Below, piece by piece: positions 2,675 through 23,779 of a DNA stretch of 64,000 nucleotides. Both the position numbers and the translations under genes were made by a program. The notes under the pieces are model-generated. The model had not been told where the DNA came from. It saw only the letters and a program-made list of their open reading frames with translations, and ran no database searches. The stretch lies in IMG/VR virus record IMGVR_UViG_3300027861_000022, positions 1 through 64,000 of that record. The stretch is one strand, 5' to 3'. How positions within the stretch are numbered: position 1 is the stretch's first letter; the number at the start of each line of letters is the position of its first letter. The stretch is from a virus.

Positions 2675-2913
2675 GCAACCAACCTCCATTTCGTAGGGTC
2701 CAGGTCGATTATCTGAAAACTATATAAATCTCCTGGGTTCCACGCATGAGTTTCATCAAGTAATACATAAGTTTTAAACAGTCTTTTCGTGACCTCGTAT
2801 ATGACAAGTCTCGACCACTCGCCACGATGAATGCTGGGGATACAAATTATATCCCCAGCCTTTAAGGTTTCGACATCATCGATCTTGAGGTGACCTTCAG
2901 TCATTGATTGCAA
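2671..2913 (-). CDS. GD-box-like small protein (unknown function)
   Basis: 80 residues. A short helical N-terminus leads into VETLKAGDIICIPS, then RLVIYEV, a TYVLL strand and an ending TKWRLVA. It fits the small-protein family at a greater distance. It overlaps the end of the upstream VWA/metallopeptidase gene by 17 bp and so is probably co-expressed with it; a role with that protein is possible but unproven. Confidence 0.65.
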   Translation of the reverse strand: MQSMTEGHLKIDDVETLKAGDIICIPSIHRGEWSRLVIYEVTKRLFKTYVLLDETHAWNPGDLYSFQIIDLDPTKWRLVA

Positions 2914-4291
2914 TCACTCGCTCATTGGTCTGGAAGTAAGGGCGTTCTGCGTGAGCCTTGGTTGTCATCCACATACGCTGACACTTGCTAGGAACAGGCT
3001 TAGGAGCCTCCATATCGGTCAAGACAATGTGACCATCAAATTTATTCGCGTTTACCCACTTGGTTGGAGCATCAAAGCAGGTTCCACCATGCTTATAGCG
3101 AGTCTTCTCGTGGCGCTCGCCCTTCTTCCAGACATGAATATGCTCCTCTGCAACCTCGGTATCAAAAGGAACAATCGTAAAGTCGGCGATGGTTGCCAGC
3201 TTTTCAAGCTCGGAATAAAAAGCTGTAAGCATCTCATCGGAGACGCTGCCCGATTGGTCAATTGAAACCGCTATTTTCGCTTGACGCTTTGCCTTGCGAC
3301 CAGGATGAATATAAGCATACCGGCGATTTAATCTCTTGATTGTTGAGGTTCTATCTGCTCTCTGGCTTGCCTTGACGAACGAGCGCAGGATTGAACGCCA
3401 GTTGACTTTAGGAGTTATAACCTCCTTAATCGTGCGCTTCATGTTAGAGGACACCGAACCGAAGCCGCGAGACATTGCCTCGACATAAGCCTCTTTAATA
3501 GCTTCTTTTAAGCGCTCTTCTGCAATCTTCCTTTTCTCGTCGGTTCCATCGGAAGAACCCCAGTCAGAATGGTCATCAAAGCCATTTCCAGAGCCAGAGC
3601 CGGGCTTGCTGGTCGGCCCTTGCCCGCCCTTGCTCTCGTTATCGTCTTGCTCGCCCTCGGAACTATCATCGGGCGGTCCGTCTCCGTCGCCGTCTCCGTC
3701 CTCGCCATCGTTGTTATCGTCGCTCTCGGAGTCACCCTGGTCCGGTTCATCCTGGTCCTCATTCTCGGGTAACAAAGTCATATATTCCTCGGCGGAAAGA
3801 TGAGGAAGAAGGTCAACAAACGGGCCAACGGTTGGGATACAGGCCATATCCACCGGCAAAAGGGAACTTTCGACGGCGCAGCCGGTTGAAGTATCGGCAT
3901 CGCGTGTAAACACAGTTAACTCGCTGTTAATCGCGAGGTCTGTGGCAATATTCCATTTCTTCGTCATCTTTCCAGATGGAAGGCGAGAAGTAACGTGCAA
4001 AAGCATGATATGATAGAATTCATGCAATAGTACGCCTTTAACGTACTTAATATCCTGATCAAGCATCTTTGCCATGAAGTCCGGGTTATAAAACAGTTCA
4101 AACCTGCATTTATCCTCATTAAAGCGGACGCCGGCGGTTGGAACCGACTTAGAAGCCACCTTTTCCATCCGTCGCGATAAAGCGGCGAAGAAAGGCTCAT
4201 CTCGGAGGAGTCCGACGATGTGAGTGTTAAGGTCGAAAGGCGGCAATTGCTTTTCGCCGTCTTTTGTGAAGGAATTAGCTAAAGTAGTCAT
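2897..4291 (-). CDS. VWA-like protein with HExxH metallopeptidase N-domain (DUF2201 type)
   Basis: About 464 residues. A zinc-metallopeptidase-like motif HEFYH lies near residue 95 of the longer reading, followed by the family-typical WNIATDLAINSEL. A long acidic, Ser/Gly-rich linker follows (about residues 175-260). The C-terminal VWA-like domain carries SIDQSGSVS, a D-x-S-x-S metal site, and later VLTDMEAP. This layout matches the putative metallopeptidase/VWA proteins encoded beside MoxR-type AAA+ ATPases, and such an ATPase lies directly upstream (4442-5596). ATG 4291 is chosen because GGAG lies nine bases before it and the promoter would put the transcript start almost on the alternative ATG at 4306. 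The pair probably remodels or disassembles a protein complex in the infected cell. Confidence 0.85.
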   Translation of the reverse strand: MTTLANSFTKDGEKQLPPFDLNTHIVGLLRDEPFFAALSRRMEKVASKSVPTAGVRFNEDKCRFELFYNPDFMAKMLDQDIKYVKGVLLHEFYHIMLLHVTSRLPSGKMTKKWNIATDLAINSELTVFTRDADTSTGCAVESSLLPVDMACIPTVGPFVDLLPHLSAEEYMTLLPENEDQDEPDQGDSESDDNNDGEDGDGDGDGPPDDSSEGEQDDNESKGGQGPTSKPGSGSGNGFDDHSDWGSSDGTDEKRKIAEERLKEAIKEAYVEAMSRGFGSVSSNMKRTIKEVITPKVNWRSILRSFVKASQRADRTSTIKRLNRRYAYIHPGRKAKRQAKIAVSIDQSGSVSDEMLTAFYSELEKLATIADFTIVPFDTEVAEEHIHVWKKGERHEKTRYKHGGTCFDAPTKWVNANKFDGHIVLTDMEAPKPVPSKCQRMWMTTKAHAERPYFQTNERVIAIND

Positions 4292-4317
4292 AGGGTAGTG
4301 CTCCATTCTATATACAT

Positions 4318-4372
4318 ATTATACCAGATTTTTCGGCATAAGTAAAGAGAAAGATTGTAAAGAAAATGTCAA
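4318..4372 (-). promoter_or_regulatory. three-hexamer early promoter
   Basis: -10 TATAAT at 4318-4323, 17-bp spacer, -35 TTTACT at 4341-4346, TTTACA at 4356-4361 and TTGACA at 4367-4372 (offsets 15 and 11). It drives the VWA/metallopeptidase gene, with the start codon about 20 bases downstream of the predicted transcript start. Confidence 0.8.
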
Positions 4373-4375
4373 GAG

Positions 4376-4421
4376 AAAAAAGGGTGGTCGGAGGGAGGCT
4401 AACCAAAACCCCCCTCCAACC
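4376..4421 (-). terminator. strong intrinsic terminator after the MoxR gene
   Basis: On the minus strand a 10-bp stem (GGTTGGAGGG with CCCTCCGACC; 4412-4421 with 4386-4395) encloses a 16-base loop and is followed by ACCC and a TTTTTT run at 4376-4381. It separates the ATPase transcript from the promoter of the next gene, which begins a few bases further on. Confidence 0.8.
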
Positions 4422-4441
4422 GGAGCTATCACACTCGCAAA

Positions 4442-5596
4442 TCACTTGCCTCCAAGCAACTTAATGAACTCCTCAACTTTTCCCTGGCGAGTCAACTCGC
4501 GGTGAAAGTTGGAGCCATTATCGGCAGATATTTGGTTGTTCGCCTTGGTCAAGGTTGTGAACAGTTTCATCCTCGCTTCGGCTGGAAGCGCGTCAAAGTA
4601 CAGGACCAAATTGGACATTTTGGACTCTTCCATTTTGGAGTTGAAAACTTCACTTGCGTCCATCTTCTCGATGAGTGCAACGTGGTCAACCAGGCCGAAA
4701 TCCTTGGTTTTATCTATCTTTCCGTGAACCAGAATATCGTCGACGGTTACCTGACGTTCGTAATTCTCAACGAAGTCGCGAAGAGCAACAGCGGCTTCAA
4801 AGCCGACAAATCCGTGGGATAGGTTGAAAAGCAGCCCCAAATCTGGGCTTTCGTCGTCAAGCAGGTTAACCTTTCCGAGCGTATTGCTCAAACGGTGCCA
4901 TGAACGGCGAGACGGATAAACAGTGCCAGGCTCAAATTCGCCCTTGTGCTCCAAGTGGTCATGATTTTGATTGATGAAGTCCCAAACAAGGCTATGAATC
5001 TCGCTTTTGCCCCAGTTGAGCCAATCTTCGATGGAAGGCTCAACGTCAAAGCAGACCCAGCGGTCAAGCTCGGCAGGGTCCATGTCCGCGACTTGGTATT
5101 GTGCAGCATGAACGCCGCCATTTACCGCGCCGAAAATGATGGTACCAGGATGGAGTTTCCAGCCGTTGATTTGGCGCGAGTCGCCAAGTTGGAAGAACCC
5201 CTGTCGAACCTCGGTTGTCGCTCGGTCAATTTCATCGAGGAAGAGGACAACGGGCTCGGTACAGGCCCGTACAAGCCAAGAGAAGGGCCGTAGAGACGCC
5301 GCATCTTGACCGTTGACCTTTACCATGGCGGGCGATGGAAGCCCCAGAAGGTCGCCTTCTGTCATCTGTGAGGCACGTTGTTCAACGACCGGTAGAGGAG
5401 TCTCACCCTGCTTAATCGGGCGAGTGGTTTTGGTCTTCGCATCCCAGGTTAAGCCGTTGGCGGTCTGGTAAGCAATCCAAGATTTGCCGATACCGTGACG
5501 GCCACGGATAAGGACGGAATAAAGGTTAGACTCATCACCCGATAGAAGGGTAGGAATCATGGAAAAAAGGTTAGAGAATGTGATAGCGATGGACAT
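4442..5596 (-). CDS. MoxR-type AAA+ ATPase
   Basis: 384 residues. Walker A is GRHGIGKS at residues 32-39; Walker B is VVLFLDEIDRA near residue 115. The region between carries an arginine-rich segment and the later GAVNGG is consistent with sensor 1. The short N-terminal helical segment followed directly by the ATPase domain is typical of MoxR/GvpN-like ATPases. It forms a pair with the VWA/metallopeptidase gene downstream, each under its own three-hexamer promoter, and a strong terminator lies between them. In cellular MoxR systems the ATPase and VWA partner act together as a chaperone or activator of a target complex; the target here is unknown. The RBS is AGGAG before the ATG. Confidence 0.85.
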   Translation of the reverse strand: MSIAITFSNLFSMIPTLLSGDESNLYSVLIRGRHGIGKSWIAYQTANGLTWDAKTKTTRPIKQGETPLPVVEQRASQMTEGDLLGLPSPAMVKVNGQDAASLRPFSWLVRACTEPVVLFLDEIDRATTEVRQGFFQLGDSRQINGWKLHPGTIIFGAVNGGVHAAQYQVADMDPAELDRWVCFDVEPSIEDWLNWGKSEIHSLVWDFINQNHDHLEHKGEFEPGTVYPSRRSWHRLSNTLGKVNLLDDESPDLGLLFNLSHGFVGFEAAVALRDFVENYERQVTVDDILVHGKIDKTKDFGLVDHVALIEKMDASEVFNSKMEESKMSNLVLYFDALPAEARMKLFTTLTKANNQISADNGSNFHRELTRQGKVEEFIKLLGGK

Positions 5597-8207: not shown

Positions 8208-8450
8208 TTACTTTTCCCTCGGATGGACCTGATACCAGCCTGGTCCACACGATTGCGTGCGAACAAGCAGGATAGTTTCCTTTCCATACGATTTTAGAGT
8301 TTTTCGATGGAATTCATCGTATCCGTCGCGACTTCGCAAAAGGTCAGCGGCGCAAACCGAAAACCAAGTTCCGACCGGACCAAAATACAGGTCTTGGCCA
8401 TTGTGGAATTCAAAAGCCTGATTTTCGTTAATGTGAATCGCCTCATTCAT
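8208..8450 (-). CDS. small hypothetical protein
   Basis: 80 residues containing AFEFHNGQDLYFGPVGTWFSV and, near the end, ETILLVRTQSCGPGWYQVHP. The FGPVG phrase resembles VFGPVATG of the next gene, hinting at a distant relationship. It overlaps the upstream gene by 8 bp. No known domain. Confidence 0.65.
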   Translation of the reverse strand: MNEAIHINENQAFEFHNGQDLYFGPVGTWFSVCAADLLRSRDGYDEFHRKTLKSYGKETILLVRTQSCGPGWYQVHPREK

Positions 8451-8661
8451 TTTCTTTTCCTCTGTTGACGATTTTCCACTCGTCTCCGTGGTTGTTTACC
8501 CATAGAGTTGTTCCGTTTAAACGCCGGTTAACCGGCGCATAAGTACAATGAATGACCACTTTATGATAAAATTTGTTGAATTCGCTAGTTTTAAAGCCGA
8601 CAACTATTCCCTCCAATTTGTTTGATTTGTGACGGATGAAATCGCCCTTTTTAAGTTCCAT
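8443..8661 (-). CDS. GD-box family protein (unknown function)
   Basis: 72 residues beginning MELKKGDFIRHKSNKLEGIVVGF, then KVVIHCTYAP, NGTTLWVNN and DEWKIVN. It has the full family order: K-x-G-D-hydrophobic-I, H-K, I-V-V-G, and a final W-K-I-V. Overlaps with both neighbours suggest translational coupling. Confidence 0.75.
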   Translation of the reverse strand: MELKKGDFIRHKSNKLEGIVVGFKTSEFNKFYHKVVIHCTYAPVNRRLNGTTLWVNNHGDEWKIVNRGKENE

Positions 8662-8887
8662 ATTGGCCGCCTTTAAACAATTTGCAAGCCTTGTGCATGA
8701 GCACAGTGGGCCTGTAAAATTTTCTATGAAGTGACCAGGTGGACGCTTCAGAGTAAAACAGATAGTAAGTATAACCGGCGCCGTGTTTCTCGATAATTAT
8801 GCTCCTGCTTCCATAGCTGTCGACGACAATTTGTCCTATCTCAAACAACAGTTTCAACGCGCCAAATCTTGTCAAGAGGGTCGACAT
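8651..8887 (-). CDS. GD-box family protein, start uncertain
   Basis: The frame reaches ATG 8887, but the family signature begins at LKLLFEIGQIVVDS, then RSIIIEKHG and TYYLFYSEA. Translation from the in-frame TTG at 8857 would give MKLLFEIGQIVV, which aligns with MKFKPGDLV of its relatives and leaves only a 17-bp overlap with the upstream gene. Function unknown. Confidence 0.65.
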   Translation of the reverse strand: MSTLLTRFGALKLLFEIGQIVVDSYGSRSIIIEKHGAGYTYYLFYSEASTWSLHRKFYRPTVLMHKACKLFKGGQYGT

Positions 8888-9101
8888 CCTCCTTGGTTAA
8901 TAGCCAAGTATCCACAAGTCCCGGTTCCCAATAACTATTACCGCGCCCCTTATCGTCACCGGCATATACACAAAATGCTTCTACCTCGCTCGACCAGCGA
9001 TATGACCCCTTGTGGACGGGTTTGTGAGGAGTCGCCTCAACAATTATCCAAACGGAGTTTGTTGGTACGTGAGTTACTAAATTTCCAGGCTTAAACTTCA
9101 T
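8841..9101 (-). CDS. GD-box family protein, paralogue of 2345-2596
   Basis: 86 residues beginning MKFKPGNLVTHVP, then WIIVEATP, EAFCVYAGDD, GLVDTWLLTKED and IWRVETVV. Each block has a counterpart in the protein at 2345-2596. Its ATG overlaps the last 11 bases of the small acidic gene upstream. Function unknown. Confidence 0.75.
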   Translation of the reverse strand: MKFKPGNLVTHVPTNSVWIIVEATPHKPVHKGSYRWSSEVEAFCVYAGDDKGRGNSYWEPGLVDTWLLTKEDVDPLDKIWRVETVV

Positions 9102-9270
9102 GATTTAAAATATCTTCGTCAAGCTGTTCCTGTATCCATTCTGGACATTCTTCGTCAGCATCCATCGGCATCGGGTCATAAGAACCGCCGAAATCATACG
9201 ATTCTTCATAGAATTCCTCTGAAGATATGGTCATAAGGTCGTTTATCGCGGGGTCGTTTGAGTATGGCAT
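9091..9270 (-). CDS. 59-residue acidic protein
   Basis: The frame begins MPYSNDPAINDLMTISSEEF, continues with many D, E and Y residues (EESYDFGGSYDPMPMDADEE) and ends PEWIQEQLDEDILNHEV. AGGAG lies seven bases before the ATG. It is the first gene after the permuted tRNA-like element and overlaps the next start by 11 bp. The strongly acidic composition is that of DNA-mimic or small inhibitor proteins, but this is only a compositional hint. Confidence 0.6.
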   Translation of the reverse strand: MPYSNDPAINDLMTISSEEFYEESYDFGGSYDPMPMDADEECPEWIQEQLDEDILNHEV

Positions 9271-9310
9271 TTCTGCTCCTGTTTGGTTTGGTTTGATTGG
9301 TAAGATAAAA

Positions 9311-9391
9311 TAGGGCGAGCGTGCTACCTAGCAACACTTCACAACTGGTCCCTTGGTCGTGACAGGATTTGAACCCGCGCCCCTCGCCCTA
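9311..9391 (-). ncRNA. circularly permuted tRNA-like element in a 5' leader
   Basis: Read on the minus strand: TAGGGCGAG (9391-9383), four bases, T-stem GCGGG, T-loop TTCAAAT, CCTGT, then CACGACC-A (9361-9354). After eight bases come GTTGTG (9345-9340), AA, D-stem GTGT, loop TGCTAGGTA, GCAC, G and CTCGCCCTA (9319-9311). GTTGTG pairs with CACGAC as an acceptor stem, and the outer 9-mers pair as an extended anticodon stem. The result is a tRNA with its 3' half encoded before its 5' half. Departures from tRNA are no T at position 8, an A-C mismatch at 1-72, no CCA in register and no defined anticodon. The -10 box lies 12 bases upstream, so the RNA begins almost at the first helix. TTTTATC follows the last helix, so it could also act as an attenuator. 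Confidence 0.5.
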
Positions 9392-9402
9392 TTTGTATAT
9401 AC

Positions 9403-9457
9403 ATTATACCAGAATTTTCCGGTTAGGTCAAGGATTAAATTGTCAAGAGAGTGTCAA
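9403..9457 (-). promoter_or_regulatory. three-hexamer early promoter
   Basis: -10 TATAAT at 9403-9408, 17-bp spacer, -35 TTGACC at 9426-9431, TTGACA at 9441-9446, TTGACA at 9452-9457 (offsets 15 and 11). The predicted transcript start near 9396 is about five bases before the tRNA-like element. Confidence 0.85.
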
Positions 9458-9463
9458 CAACTT

Positions 9464-9718
9464 TTAAAAGTAATCTTTCAGAGTTTTAATCTCGCCGTAC
9501 TCTTTCTGAAAGTTAGCTCGGTCTTCTTCATCCTCGAATCGGATGACTGAAACGTCTTCGCCGAGTGAGCCGGTTACGCCAAAGTGCTTGGGTGGGGAGT
9601 TATCCCCGCCCCGATCTTCTACGCAGTCTGGACACTCATTGATATATCCTCCGACGAGGCGCTTTTGGCGCGAGTTAACATTGAATTCTATTTCACAGTG
9701 TTTACAAGTTTTAATCAT
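9464..9718 (-). CDS. small zinc-ribbon-like protein
   Basis: 84 residues with C-x2-C (TCKHCEIEF) near the N-terminus and C-x2-C (NECPDCVED) about 22 residues later, a treble-clef or zinc-ribbon spacing. The C-terminal half is acidic and ends IKTLKDYF. It follows the tRNA-Ile gene. Zinc-binding is inferred from the four cysteines; function unknown. Confidence 0.7.
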   Translation of the reverse strand: MIKTCKHCEIEFNVNSRQKRLVGGYINECPDCVEDRGGDNSPPKHFGVTGSLGEDVSVIRFEDEEDRANFQKEYGEIKTLKDYF

Positions 9719-9745
9719 GATTTACCTTTATGGTTCTGGGTTAAA

Positions 9746-9821
9746 TGGTACGCTAGGGTGGATTTGAACCACCGACCAATCGCATATAAGACGACTGCTC
9801 TCACCCCTGAGCTACTAGCGT
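9746..9821 (-). tRNA. tRNA-Ile (anticodon UAU)
   Basis: A complete 76-nt cloverleaf with encoded CCA. Acceptor stem ACGCTAG/CTAGCGT; TA at positions 8-9; D-arm GCTC-AGGGGTGA-GAGC; anticodon stem GTCGT/GCGAT around loop CTTATAT, giving anticodon TAT; variable loop TGGTC; T-arm GGTGG-TTCAAAT-CCACC; discriminator A. It should read AUA codons directly, without the lysidine modification that the usual bacterial CAU-anticodon isoacceptor needs. Confidence 0.92.
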
Positions 9822-9824
9822 GTA

Positions 9825-9876
9825 TGGTACTCGGAGAGGGATTTGAACCCTCAATCCCATCGGGCGACAGATTTTA
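9825..9876 (-). pseudogene. 3' half of a class II tRNA, Leu(UAA)-like
   Basis: From the anticodon loop onward the sequence is a normal tRNA 3' half: TAAAA (loop positions 34-38), TCTGT, a long variable arm with CCC-GAT-GGG, T-arm GAGGG-TTCAAAT-CCCTC, TCCGAGT, A and CCA. The UAAAA loop and long arm indicate tRNA-Leu(UAA). The matching 5' half should begin ACTCGGA and is not upstream; instead there is a 14-codon frame (9895-9939, with an AGGAG site) and unrelated sequence. It lies 3 bp from the intact tRNA-Ile. It may be a remnant, a trans-assembled half, or part of a split gene. I see no group I intron core nearby. Confidence 0.6.
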
Positions 9877-9951
9877 CTTTGTAACAAACTATCCTCACTT
9901 GGTTCTTTCTGGATGGTTACCTTTTGTATCTTTATTCATTCTTCGCTCTCC

Positions 9952-10257
9952 TTAAATCGCCTTCATTTCTGAAAGAAGGTCTTCATAGTTCTCAATGTAT
10001 CCTCCATTGGTTCTGCCATCCAGTCGGTTTAGTAGATTGATCGAGGATTCACCCGCCCACAAATCATCATCTTTCCATCCGAGAAACTCTTTCACTCCTG
10101 GGAATTCCTTGGTGATTTTGATAATGGTATCATCCAGATCACGGATCTCTTCTGCACTTCGCCTACACAGAGATTTCAGTCTGATTACCTCTTTTTGCAG
10201 ATCTCGCTTTTGTTTTCGGAGTTTATCGATTTGAATGAATACGGTTTCGTCACTCAT
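9952..10257 (-). CDS. coiled-coil small protein
   Basis: About 101 residues beginning MSDETVFIQIDKLRKQKRDL, with heptad-like leucines through residue 55, and a C-terminal half with LLNRLDGRTNGG. ATG 10257 is chosen because AAGGAG lies nine bases before it; a longer frame to 10323 would overlap the upstream gene by 74 bp. No family recognised; probably dimeric through the coiled coil. Confidence 0.7.
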   Translation of the reverse strand: MSDETVFIQIDKLRKQKRDLQKEVIRLKSLCRRSAEEIRDLDDTIIKITKEFPGVKEFLGWKDDDLWAGESSINLLNRLDGRTNGGYIENYEDLLSEMKAI

Positions 10258-10480
10258 TTTCTTCTCCTTTCCCCCAACTTCCAAACTCTTCAATATATTC
10301 TCTTTGAAGTTCAGAGGGGTCAAAATATGAAAGTTGGTCCTTGAACCACCGATATCGTTTATAAACCTCTTTCATCTTGTCAAAAGCAGGATAAGCAACA
10401 TTTTCGTCCAAGCAACCTTCGTTAAAGGCAGCCCGCAACCCTTGTCTAATAGCATCAAATTCTTGTTCAGTGATTTTCAT
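10250..10480 (-). CDS. small hypothetical protein
   Basis: 76 residues, mostly helical by composition (FDAIRQGLRAAFNEG, AFDKMKEVYKRYRWF), ending in acidic residues. It overlaps the downstream start by 8 bp and the upstream microgene by 14 bp. No motif recognised. Confidence 0.65.
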   Translation of the reverse strand: MKITEQEFDAIRQGLRAAFNEGCLDENVAYPAFDKMKEVYKRYRWFKDQLSYFDPSELQREYIEEFGSWGKGEENE

Positions 10481-10565
10481 TTTCTTCTACCTGCAACACA
10501 ATAAACGTGGCGCGCTTCAGTTTATAGCAACCGCCTGTCTTTAGGTCTTCAAGTTCAAGCTTCAT
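10467..10565 (-). CDS. 32-residue GD-box-like microprotein
   Basis: The frame begins MKLELEDLKTGGCYKLKRAT and ends FIVLQVEENENH. The L-K-T-G start and the I-V-L-Q-V-E-E strand match the first third of the larger paralogues upstream (SLKPGQMLRYS then WILLEE), so this looks like a truncated or minimal family member. Its start overlaps the upstream stop by 11 bp, as in the rest of the operon. Confidence 0.5.
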   Translation of the reverse strand: MKLELEDLKTGGCYKLKRATFIVLQVEENENH

Positions 10566-10773
10566 GTTTCACCAAATCGCAGGTGCGTAATCCAGTCCTA
10601 TCGCCAGCGGTCCATGATTCATGAGAGGAGAAGACGATATACGAATTCCAGATTCGATGCTTGACAACGAGATAGTCAGTGTCCAGTCCAACCCCAAGGA
10701 GGATGACCGTACTTCCCTCAAGTCCGCCACGAAGAACGGTTCTTAATTGTCCTGCTTTAAGCTCGTCTTTCAT
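10555..10773 (-). CDS. GD-box-like small protein (LKxGQ subgroup)
   Basis: 72 residues beginning MKDELKAGQLRTVLR, then STVILLGVG, YLVVKHRIW and YIVFSSHES. The L-K-A-G-Q start groups it with the two larger LKPGQ proteins upstream. It shares a 4-bp overlap with its upstream neighbour. Function unknown. Confidence 0.68.
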   Translation of the reverse strand: MKDELKAGQLRTVLRGGLEGSTVILLGVGLDTDYLVVKHRIWNSYIVFSSHESWTAGDRTGLRTCDLVKHEA

Positions 10774-20175: not shown

Positions 20176-20188
20176 ACTAAATAGTTTT
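20176..20188 (-). promoter_or_regulatory. late-type motif ACTATTTAG
   Basis: Coding strand AAAACTATTTAGT spanning the GroEL stop codon, 13 bp before the start at 20163. The last position differs from the ACTATTTAT consensus. Confidence 0.35.
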
Positions 20189-21755
20189 AGCTTTGGATAA
20201 TGGCATAGTTTGTTGTAATTAAAGTGCCGGAAACAGAGGCAGCATTTTGCAATGCAGTCCTCGTAACTTTGACCGGATCAATGATGCCAGCCTCGATCAT
20301 ATTGACGATCTTATCTGTCACAAAGTTATAGCCCTTCTCGTCTTCTTCCTTTAAAACGAGGTCGCAAATGATGTCTGGAGACTTTCCAGCGTTTAGGGCC
20401 ATCTGTCTGATCGGGGCTTTAACAGCCTCTTTAACTATCTCAACTCCAAGCAACTGATAATCATTATCTACTTCAACCTCCAGATTCTTTGTGGCGCGTA
20501 GTAGGGCCGTTCCGCCTCCAGCAATGATCCCTTCCATTTGTGCCGATCGGACTGCCTCCAATGCGTCTTCAATCCTGTGTTTCTTTTCAACCATCTCAAT
20601 TTCAGTTGATGCTCCGACACGGATGATAGCGATGCCGCTAGCCAATCGTGCGATGCGGTCCTGAATCTTTTCACACTCGTGAAGGTTATCTTCCTCGATC
20701 AAGTCAGATTTTAAGTCGTCAATCTGTTGGTCAATGGAGTCGGAGTCTCCGTCTCCGCCAATGATTGTCGTTTGGGTTCTGGTGATGTCGATGCGGTTTG
20801 CAGTGCCAAGGTCGACTAATTTAATATCTTGGAGCCTCCGGCCATTTGAGCGACTGATGAATTCAGCACCCACAGAAAGAGCCAAGTCCTTGAGTATGTT
20901 TTGCCTTTCCACTCCGTAGCGAGGAACTTTAACCGCTGCGATTTTCAAGGTTCCTCGCATTGCGTTCATAATCATGGCAGCGAGGGCTTGACCTTCTATC
21001 TCACCCGCAATGAATACGAGTGGTCGTGCTTCCCGTGCTGCTAATTCTAGAACTGAGAAGATATCTTGAACATGTTCAATCTTTTCGTCCGTGACCAATA
21101 ACAGGGGATTGTCGTAGGTTACCGCTCGGCGTCTCTCATCGGTTATGAAGGCCGTTGCAGCATAGCCAGAGTCAATCCTAAACCCTTCAACAAGGTCTAG
21201 GCTGGTTTGAAGCGAGCGCGCCTCCTCGACGGTAATAGCGCCATCTTTTCCCGCTGCGCTGACTGCTTGTCCAATGAGGCTCCCGATTAGTTTATCGTTG
21301 TTGGCCGAAATAGTGGCAACGTGGCTTATGTCCTCCTCGCAGGTAATGGGGCGCGAGGCTTCCTTCAGGTTCTCGATGATGACTGCGACTGCTTTTTCGA
21401 TTCCCCTTTGAAGTTCAATGGGCGGGACACCGGAAGAGATATACTTCTGTGCTTTGTTCAGGATGGCCCGAGACAATACCGTAGCAGTTGTGGTTCCATC
21501 GCCAGCGTCAAGGTTCGTTTGTGCTGCAGCCTGCTTGATGATCTGAGCACCAGCGTTCTCAATGGGATCTTCAAGGTCCACGAACTCTGCGACCGTGACG
21601 CCATCCTTTGTAATGATGGGTCGCTTGTTTTTCTCTTGTAAGATAACGTTCCGACCCCTTGGTCCAAGAGTGGAAGCTACATTGTCTGCTAGGATGTTGA
21701 TTCCCTTGAGAATCTTTTGGTTCATGTCCGAACCAGAACCGTAATGTTTAGTCAA
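20187..21755 (-). CDS. groEL: GroEL-type chaperonin
   Basis: 522 residues, slightly shorter than the usual 545. The start is TTG (MTKHYGSGSDM) with GAGGTG upstream. Conserved group I chaperonin blocks: LGPRGRNVILQE, TKDGVTVAEFVDLEDP, AGDGTTTATVLSRAIL (ATP site), then IEGFRIDSGYAATAF-like apical start, and GGGTALLRA in the C-terminal equatorial half. The Gly-Gly-Met tail is absent. A GroES-like gene lies at 39022-39291, so the phage appears to encode a full folding machine, probably for capsid or other large proteins. It has its own consensus promoter. Confidence 0.95.
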   Translation of the reverse strand: MTKHYGSGSDMNQKILKGINILADNVASTLGPRGRNVILQEKNKRPIITKDGVTVAEFVDLEDPIENAGAQIIKQAAAQTNLDAGDGTTTATVLSRAILNKAQKYISSGVPPIELQRGIEKAVAVIIENLKEASRPITCEEDISHVATISANNDKLIGSLIGQAVSAAGKDGAITVEEARSLQTSLDLVEGFRIDSGYAATAFITDERRRAVTYDNPLLLVTDEKIEHVQDIFSVLELAAREARPLVFIAGEIEGQALAAMIMNAMRGTLKIAAVKVPRYGVERQNILKDLALSVGAEFISRSNGRRLQDIKLVDLGTANRIDITRTQTTIIGGDGDSDSIDQQIDDLKSDLIEEDNLHECEKIQDRIARLASGIAIIRVGASTEIEMVEKKHRIEDALEAVRSAQMEGIIAGGGTALLRATKNLEVEVDNDYQLLGVEIVKEAVKAPIRQMALNAGKSPDIICDLVLKEEDEKGYNFVTDKIVNMIEAGIIDPVKVTRTALQNAASVSGTLITTNYAIIQS

Positions 21756-23098: not shown

Positions 23099-23779
23099 CT
23101 AAACAATAATATCTGCAATGCCATATTTAACCGCTTCCTCTGCGCAGAGATACACATTCACATTCTTTGAGATCATTCTCTTTAATTGTGCTTTTGTTAA
23201 ACTTGTCTCGGCAACAATTGCTTCAATATAAAGTTCCTGCATTCTCTTGATCTCTGCCATTTCTGTTGTCAAATTGGAGATGTTGCCCTGTGTTCCAGAT
23301 GCTACTCCGTGAAGCATTACCCGACAATAGCGTCCGATACGTCTGTGACCCTTGGTGCCGCTAGCTAGCAAGAGAACTCCTGCCGACATTACCTTGCCAA
23401 GACCAAAGGTTTTTATATCCATATCATCTCTCAAGTATCGGACAGTATCGTATATGGCAAACATATCAGTTGCGTCACCGCCGACTGTAGAGATTAAGAA
23501 GTCCACGGGCTGAGGTTCTTCTTTGAACCCTTTGGCGATGTCCTCGTAATCCACGGGAGTCTTCTTTGTTCTCGTCATATGCGCGGCATGAAGGCTGAAA
23601 ATAACTTCTTCAGACCTCGTTTCGTTGACTTCTCCGAATAAACCAATGGTCCGAAGCTTTTCTTCTTCATCGAATTGCATATGCAACAGAGAAGTGTCGA
23701 GTTCTTCTTCGGGGATTTCCCCCTCTTCTGGGGCGGCTGCCTCCTCTTCTTCGGGAATTTCTTCTTTTGTATCAGGCAC
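23099..23779 (-). CDS. ClpP-like serine protease with altered catalytic triad
   Basis: 226 residues. After an acidic, Pro-rich 40-residue N-terminus the ClpP fold begins (RTIGLFGEVNE, STVGGDATDMFAIYDTVRYL). Nucleophile Ser132 in GKVMSAGVLLLASG and His157 in RVMLHGVASG keep the canonical 25-residue spacing. At the catalytic Asp position (before YLCAEEAVKYG) the residue is Asn208. Similar ClpP-like proteins serve as phage prohead proteases or act with host Clp ATPases. The substitution may tune rather than abolish activity. It overlaps the upstream gene by 8 bp. Confidence 0.88.
   Translation of the reverse strand: MPDTKEEIPEEEEAAAPEEGEIPEEELDTSLLHMQFDEEEKLRTIGLFGEVNETRSEEVIFSLHAAHMTRTKKTPVDYEDIAKGFKEEPQPVDFLISTVGGDATDMFAIYDTVRYLRDDMDIKTFGLGKVMSAGVLLLASGTKGHRRIGRYCRVMLHGVASGTQGNISNLTTEMAEIKRMQELYIEAIVAETSLTKAQLKRMISKNVNVYLCAEEAVKYGIADIIV

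Follow-up and report, generated by a model that had tools for sequence, protein, structure and literature searches.

Circularly permuted tRNA genes, in which the 3' half of the tRNA lies ahead of the 5' half, are known from red and green algae and from some archaea. YrlA is a bacterial Y RNA that mimics tRNA and is bound by Ro60, and its tRNA-like domain makes up one half of the molecule. In YrlA (Rfam RF02553; PDB 6CU1) the T-arm is followed by an acceptor-like hairpin and then by the D-arm, and the strands holding the two ends of the RNA close the module. The basal stem of YrlA holds Rsr/Ro60, while DusA and TruB modify the tRNA-like domain, to which PNPase also binds (PMC8394870). TROVE (Ro60) proteins are present in a subset of jumbo phages (review, PMC7824862), and YrlA has been reported in phages according to a jumbo-phage paper (PMC7765460).

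The DNA analysed here, 64,000 nucleotides that we refer to as the window, is a portion of a 66,152-base virus record of a marine, myovirus-like phage. The closest match to its tail sheath (29% identity over 99% of the protein) is from an uncultured phage, and the phage has no cultured close relatives. On the minus strand of the window we characterized a complete tRNA-like element (9308-9396) extending from the expected first base of a transcript to the end of a closing stem. On balance we favor the interpretation that this element is a stripped-down, Ro-less tRNA mimic of the YrlA type that is transcribed as a 5' leader and probably acts as a small stable RNA or decoy.

Fold and promoter of the tRNA-like leader

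The 5' strand of the closing stem, AAATAGGGCGAG (9383-9394, minus strand, as are all features of the element), pairs with the 3' strand, CTCGCCCTATTT (9308-9319), in one continuous 12-bp helix, which was defined by folding and by comparison of the carriers and takes the place of an anticodon stem or of the basal stem of a Y RNA. Enclosed by this helix are a T-arm, GCGGG-TTCAAAT-CCTGT (9362-9378), with the consensus residues T54, T55, C56 and A58; an acceptor-like hairpin, CACGAC-CAAGGGACCA-GTTGTG (9340-9361), whose 6-bp strands (9361-9356 and 9345-9340) flank a loop of 10 nt and which is invariant in all three carriers; and a D-arm, GTGT-TGCTAGGTA-GCAC (9321-9337), with the G18-G19 pair. A sequence-only reading of this stretch had described the same order of arms with pairings of 5 bp in the T-arm, 6 bp in the acceptor and 4 bp in the D-arm, and these were confirmed: all four helices are present in the minimum free energy fold of the element (z = -3.9; 1 of 200 shuffles equally good), and at the D-arm this fold favors a longer 7-bp hairpin with a triloop instead. 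The two ends do pair in the anticodon position as that reading had it, but over 12 bp and not 9. A search of both strands for the joint set of constraints matched this one place in the window and nothing in 150 Markov-shuffled windows, and no ordinary tRNA overlaps the element. The partners of the tertiary contacts G18-G19, T54-A58 and G15-C48 are all present, and positions 8 and 14 are A and T rather than the usual U8-A14.

The arms follow one another as in a tRNA cut open at the anticodon, and this order, together with the consensus bases of the T- and D-loops, had suggested a true circularly permuted tRNA gene, the transcript of which would be circularized and cut into a working tRNA. We consider this highly improbable. 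The continuous closing helix leaves no usable anticodon loop of 7 nt, ARAGORN found no gene in the rejoined natural halves, and no encoded CCA directly follows the acceptor strand in the tRNA register. Furthermore, no RtcB ligase was detected in 11 records of the phage family, which also counts against a permuted tRNA. Thus, whereas the order of the halves is shared with permuted tRNA genes, the element lacks their anticodon loop and splicing-type junction and does not give a complete tRNA upon rejoining. ARAGORN did call a tRNA-Ile once part of the 5' strand of the rejoined halves had been trimmed away, and then with C in place of U at position 33; this call was discarded as an artefact of the trimming.

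Directly upstream of the element lies a strong sigma-70-type promoter, TTGACC-17 nt-TATAAT (9403-9431, minus strand; 11 of 12 matches), with TG preceding the -10 box (extended -10), which is found at the same position in the related phages L001, L002, L003, L004 and L154. The predicted transcript start at ~9396 is two bases ahead of the closing stem, in agreement with the earlier proposal that transcription begins near the first base of the element. The predicted transcript begins with ACAAATAGGGCGAG, and the final 12 of these letters pair with CTCGCCCTATTT at the opposite end. Immediately 3' of the element are a ribosome-binding site and ORF59 (9091-9270, minus strand), a small acidic ORF of 59 amino acids that belongs to no known family. 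With the arms present and the promoter directly upstream, the description of the element as a tRNA mimic placed as a 5' leader is well supported. Attenuation by the tRNA-like fold, which had been offered as an alternative, is not supported, because a scan of 8400-10600 revealed no terminator-like sites within or after the element and because relatives keep the promoter-gene unit without it. T-box and thrS-type leaders likewise hold a tRNA-related structure within a 5' leader; unlike them, the element has neither a terminator/antiterminator nor a known target gene, and here the leader itself bears the T- and D-arm sequences.

Carriers, empty sites and conservation

Besides the window, the element was found in L002 (193 kb) and L004 (114 kb), in both cases flanked by the same promoter upstream and the same small ORF downstream. 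A narrow pattern search of viral contigs matched only these two known carriers, and a similar pattern found no match in bacterial and archaeal genomes. The element of the window is 96.4% identical to that of L002 and 94.0% identical to that of L004, whereas identity of the surroundings between window and carriers is 73% in the promoter stretch, 60% in ORF59 and 81% in ORF84; the leader 3' of the element is 69% identical between window and L002. Among the three carriers one T-stem pair alternates between G-U and A-U, and a C-to-A change at one position of the closing stem in L002 and L004 results in an A-G mismatch. No compensatory double changes were found among these carriers, which provide only three sequences, two of them nearly identical.

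In three relatives, L001, L003 and L154, the promoter is followed by a short leader (~25-35 bases) and a homologue of ORF59, and the element is absent. Given that in these phages the promoter runs straight into the gene, the element can be regarded as a removable insert. ORF59 of L001 shares 70% of its residues with that of the window as opposed to 56% for the carriers, indicating that the element was gained or lost independently of ORF59. The same presence and absence across the window and these five relatives is seen for a tRNA-Ile(TAT) located ahead of ORF84 (9746-9821, minus strand), which is 100% identical between window and L002 and which in L002 and L004 likewise has a promoter on one side and a small ORF on the other. 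Directly before this tRNA, at ~9876-9825 (minus strand), we observed a tRNA-Leu-like 3' half with a break at the anticodon loop, an intact T-arm and CCA; since L002 and L004 have a promoter at that place, the tRNA-Leu of the window seems truncated.

The conservation, the empty sites and the parallel with tRNA-Ile suggest that the element behaves like an RNA gene set behind a promoter. The main rival is a purely cis-acting role, in which the element would be a stable 5' structure that governs how long the ORF59 mRNA lasts or how well it is translated, perhaps after cleavage by RNase P or a different tRNA-processing enzyme. The placement of the element is compatible with such a role: it opens the predicted transcript, or nearly so, is followed directly by the ribosome-binding site and ORF59 without an intervening terminator, and is placed identically in all three carriers. 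However, the promoter-ORF59 unit exists without the element in three phages, one of which, L001, encodes the ORF59 closest to that of the window (70% of amino acids), and the element, loops included, is far more conserved than ORF59. A role confined to cis is therefore rather unlikely in our view.

Comparison with YrlA and with modules of viral tRNA arrays

The best non-tRNA match to the element in Rfam was YrlA, which aligned over its full length with 22.9 bits (E = 0.027 in 800 bases; 5.3e-4 in the 66-kb genome). The order from T-arm through acceptor-like hairpin to D-arm, the closure of the module by the strands holding the ends of the RNA, the T-loop and the GG of the D-loop are common to both, and so are the linkers of 4 nt ahead of the T-arm, 2 nt ahead of the D-arm and 1 nt behind it. 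As the tRNA-like domain of YrlA is already known to have its arms in this rotated order, such a module encoded by a phage is not in itself a novelty. In YrlA, however, the basal stem carries an internal loop and a TACTTC/CAGCAA or GGGAACTA-type motif, whereas the element has a continuous 12-bp stem; a motif search and comparison with the viral modules of L268 and L283 found no basal internal loop with the conserved motif, the site of Ro60/Rsr, in the element. It also differs in scoring below the Rfam gathering cut-off for YrlA (69 bits), in sitting at the head of an mRNA and in the lack of a detected TROVE gene. With the Pfam model no TROVE was found in the 66-kb record, in the 193-kb and 114-kb carriers or in other relatives, some of which may be incomplete records; a two-sequence phage profile, used without a positive control, found none in the same, possibly incomplete, genome family.

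Two ordinary tRNA genes side by side score 21-31 bits with RF02553, so that this score alone proves little, and we therefore sought isolated modules in viral contigs, by pattern scans followed by filters for a T-arm, a flush acceptor hairpin and a D-arm. Among the matches listed were more than 20 clear viral modules, highly divergent in sequence and each with a perfect 7-bp acceptor hairpin; many of these modules had a TACTTC or CAGCAA motif upstream and an outer stem, i.e. the layout of a Y RNA. At least 23 viral contigs carry YrlA-type modules, and a TROVE match was found in 12 of these, 10 of them above the cut-off; in another search the two TROVE-positive contigs again had YrlA-type matches. 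The modules of L268, L283 and L237 do not pass the Rfam cut-off either, indicating that it misses phage members. The modules in viral arrays, such as those of L268, L283, L237 and L260, share the inner tRNA-like module with the element, but where the element has its 12-bp helix they have an inner stem of ~5 bp, an internal loop with the motif and an outer stem, and they are located in tRNA arrays on contigs many of which encode TROVE.

YrlA-type RNAs of these arrays were located at L268:5204-5273, L283:9752-9822 and 9909-9983, L237:7665-8086 and L267:3057-3128, and in L223, L246, L260 and L282. They often occur two or three to a contig, fall into two apparent subtypes (TACTTC and CAGCAA), and those tested score under the Rfam cut-off. 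Three contigs, L206 (169 kb), L253 (167 kb) and L223 (95 kb), carry YrlA-type modules with no TROVE match, possibly reflecting a diverged Ro60 or more Ro-less systems.

From 23 unrelated viral modules of the YrlA type we built a covariance model (R1) of the inner module, which aligned over the whole length of the element with standard pairs throughout (30.0 bits; E = 2.4e-7 in 416 kb). The R1 fold shows strong covariation, with the caveat that all its helices except the closing one had been criteria in choosing the sequences. Tandem tRNAs reached equal or higher R1 scores, up to 48 bits, and neither RF02553 nor R1 was accepted as stand-alone proof, tandem tRNA genes scoring 21-48 bits. YrlA matches in L021-L026 were likewise rejected, all being tandem tRNAs or tmRNA plus tRNA; phage tmRNA genes were seen in two of these more distant relatives of the phage (L024, 1224-1555; L026, 749-1088). 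The case for a putative YrlA-type module at this locus rests on the combination of no overlapping ordinary tRNA, flush acceptor strands and the 12-bp closing helix.

The 3' half of the element is most like the 3' halves of phage tRNA-Pro (19 of the best 60, 7.5-fold enriched), to which BLAST also gave weak matches; this makes descent from a tRNA plausible and a function as tRNA not. This resemblance, along with the truncated tRNA-Leu 3' half nearby, would suit functionless fragments of tRNA genes that fold in this way by chance. We hold such a relic to be unlikely, given that a closing helix of 12 bp together with an acceptor hairpin that pairs flush would not be expected of leftovers, and that the element is highly conserved in contrast to its diverged surroundings. 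In addition, 79 module-like places were found in 3.28 Mb of tRNA-rich viral loci, and among the matches listed no other closing helix exceeded 8 bp. Promoter-anchored and promoter-free scans of viral contigs gave, among the matches listed, no other member with a long closing helix.

Proposed role of the element

The sequence itself shows the arms and the promoter, the conservation of the element and its status as an insert relative to related phages; how the RNA might act is more conditional. In the mechanism we propose for the YrlA-type mimic, the T-arm, the acceptor-like hairpin and the D-arm would be held by the single closing helix at the start of an early-type phage transcript. The presence of all partners of G18-G19, T54-A58 and G15-C48 suggests that the RNA folds into a tRNA-like elbow, with G18/G19 contacting the T-loop and G15 contacting C48, and this elbow may be recognized by tRNA-handling proteins, as with YrlA. 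By analogy with tRNA-Ile ahead of ORF84 in the same phages, the element is probably a small stable RNA, decoy or binding platform that shares a promoter with a small ORF. The RNA might be either released from the ORF59 mRNA or left on it, and it would also close the 5' end of that mRNA.

Since the element lacks the basal region with TACTTC or CAGCAA of phage Y RNAs, it is predicted not to bind Ro60 by the usual route. Given the missing basal motif and the undetected TROVE, it should not be filed as a Y RNA; by anatomy it corresponds to the tRNA-like domain of one. More tentatively, it might represent a class of Ro60-independent phage tRNA mimics, in which the YrlA-type module alone, placed behind an early promoter at the head of a small-ORF mRNA, acts in trans on tRNA-handling enzymes of the host, its nucleases or PNPase, either as a decoy or as a regulator; we see this as possible rather than probable. 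A module that is apparently Ro-less and heads an mRNA makes it possible to see, in a natural setting, what the tRNA-like domain can do alone, and it may give phages a further means of engaging tRNA-handling enzymes in the course of infection. The abundance of modules in viral arrays suggests that phage Y RNAs are far commoner than the Rfam cut-off shows.

Elsewhere on the minus strand of the window, inspection of translations by eye identified a GroEL-like chaperonin (20187-21755) and a ClpP-like protease (23099-23779). A DUF2201 metallopeptidase/VWA protein adjoins a MoxR-like AAA ATPase at 2897-5596 (minus strand), and this ATPase is kept in 20 viral contigs.
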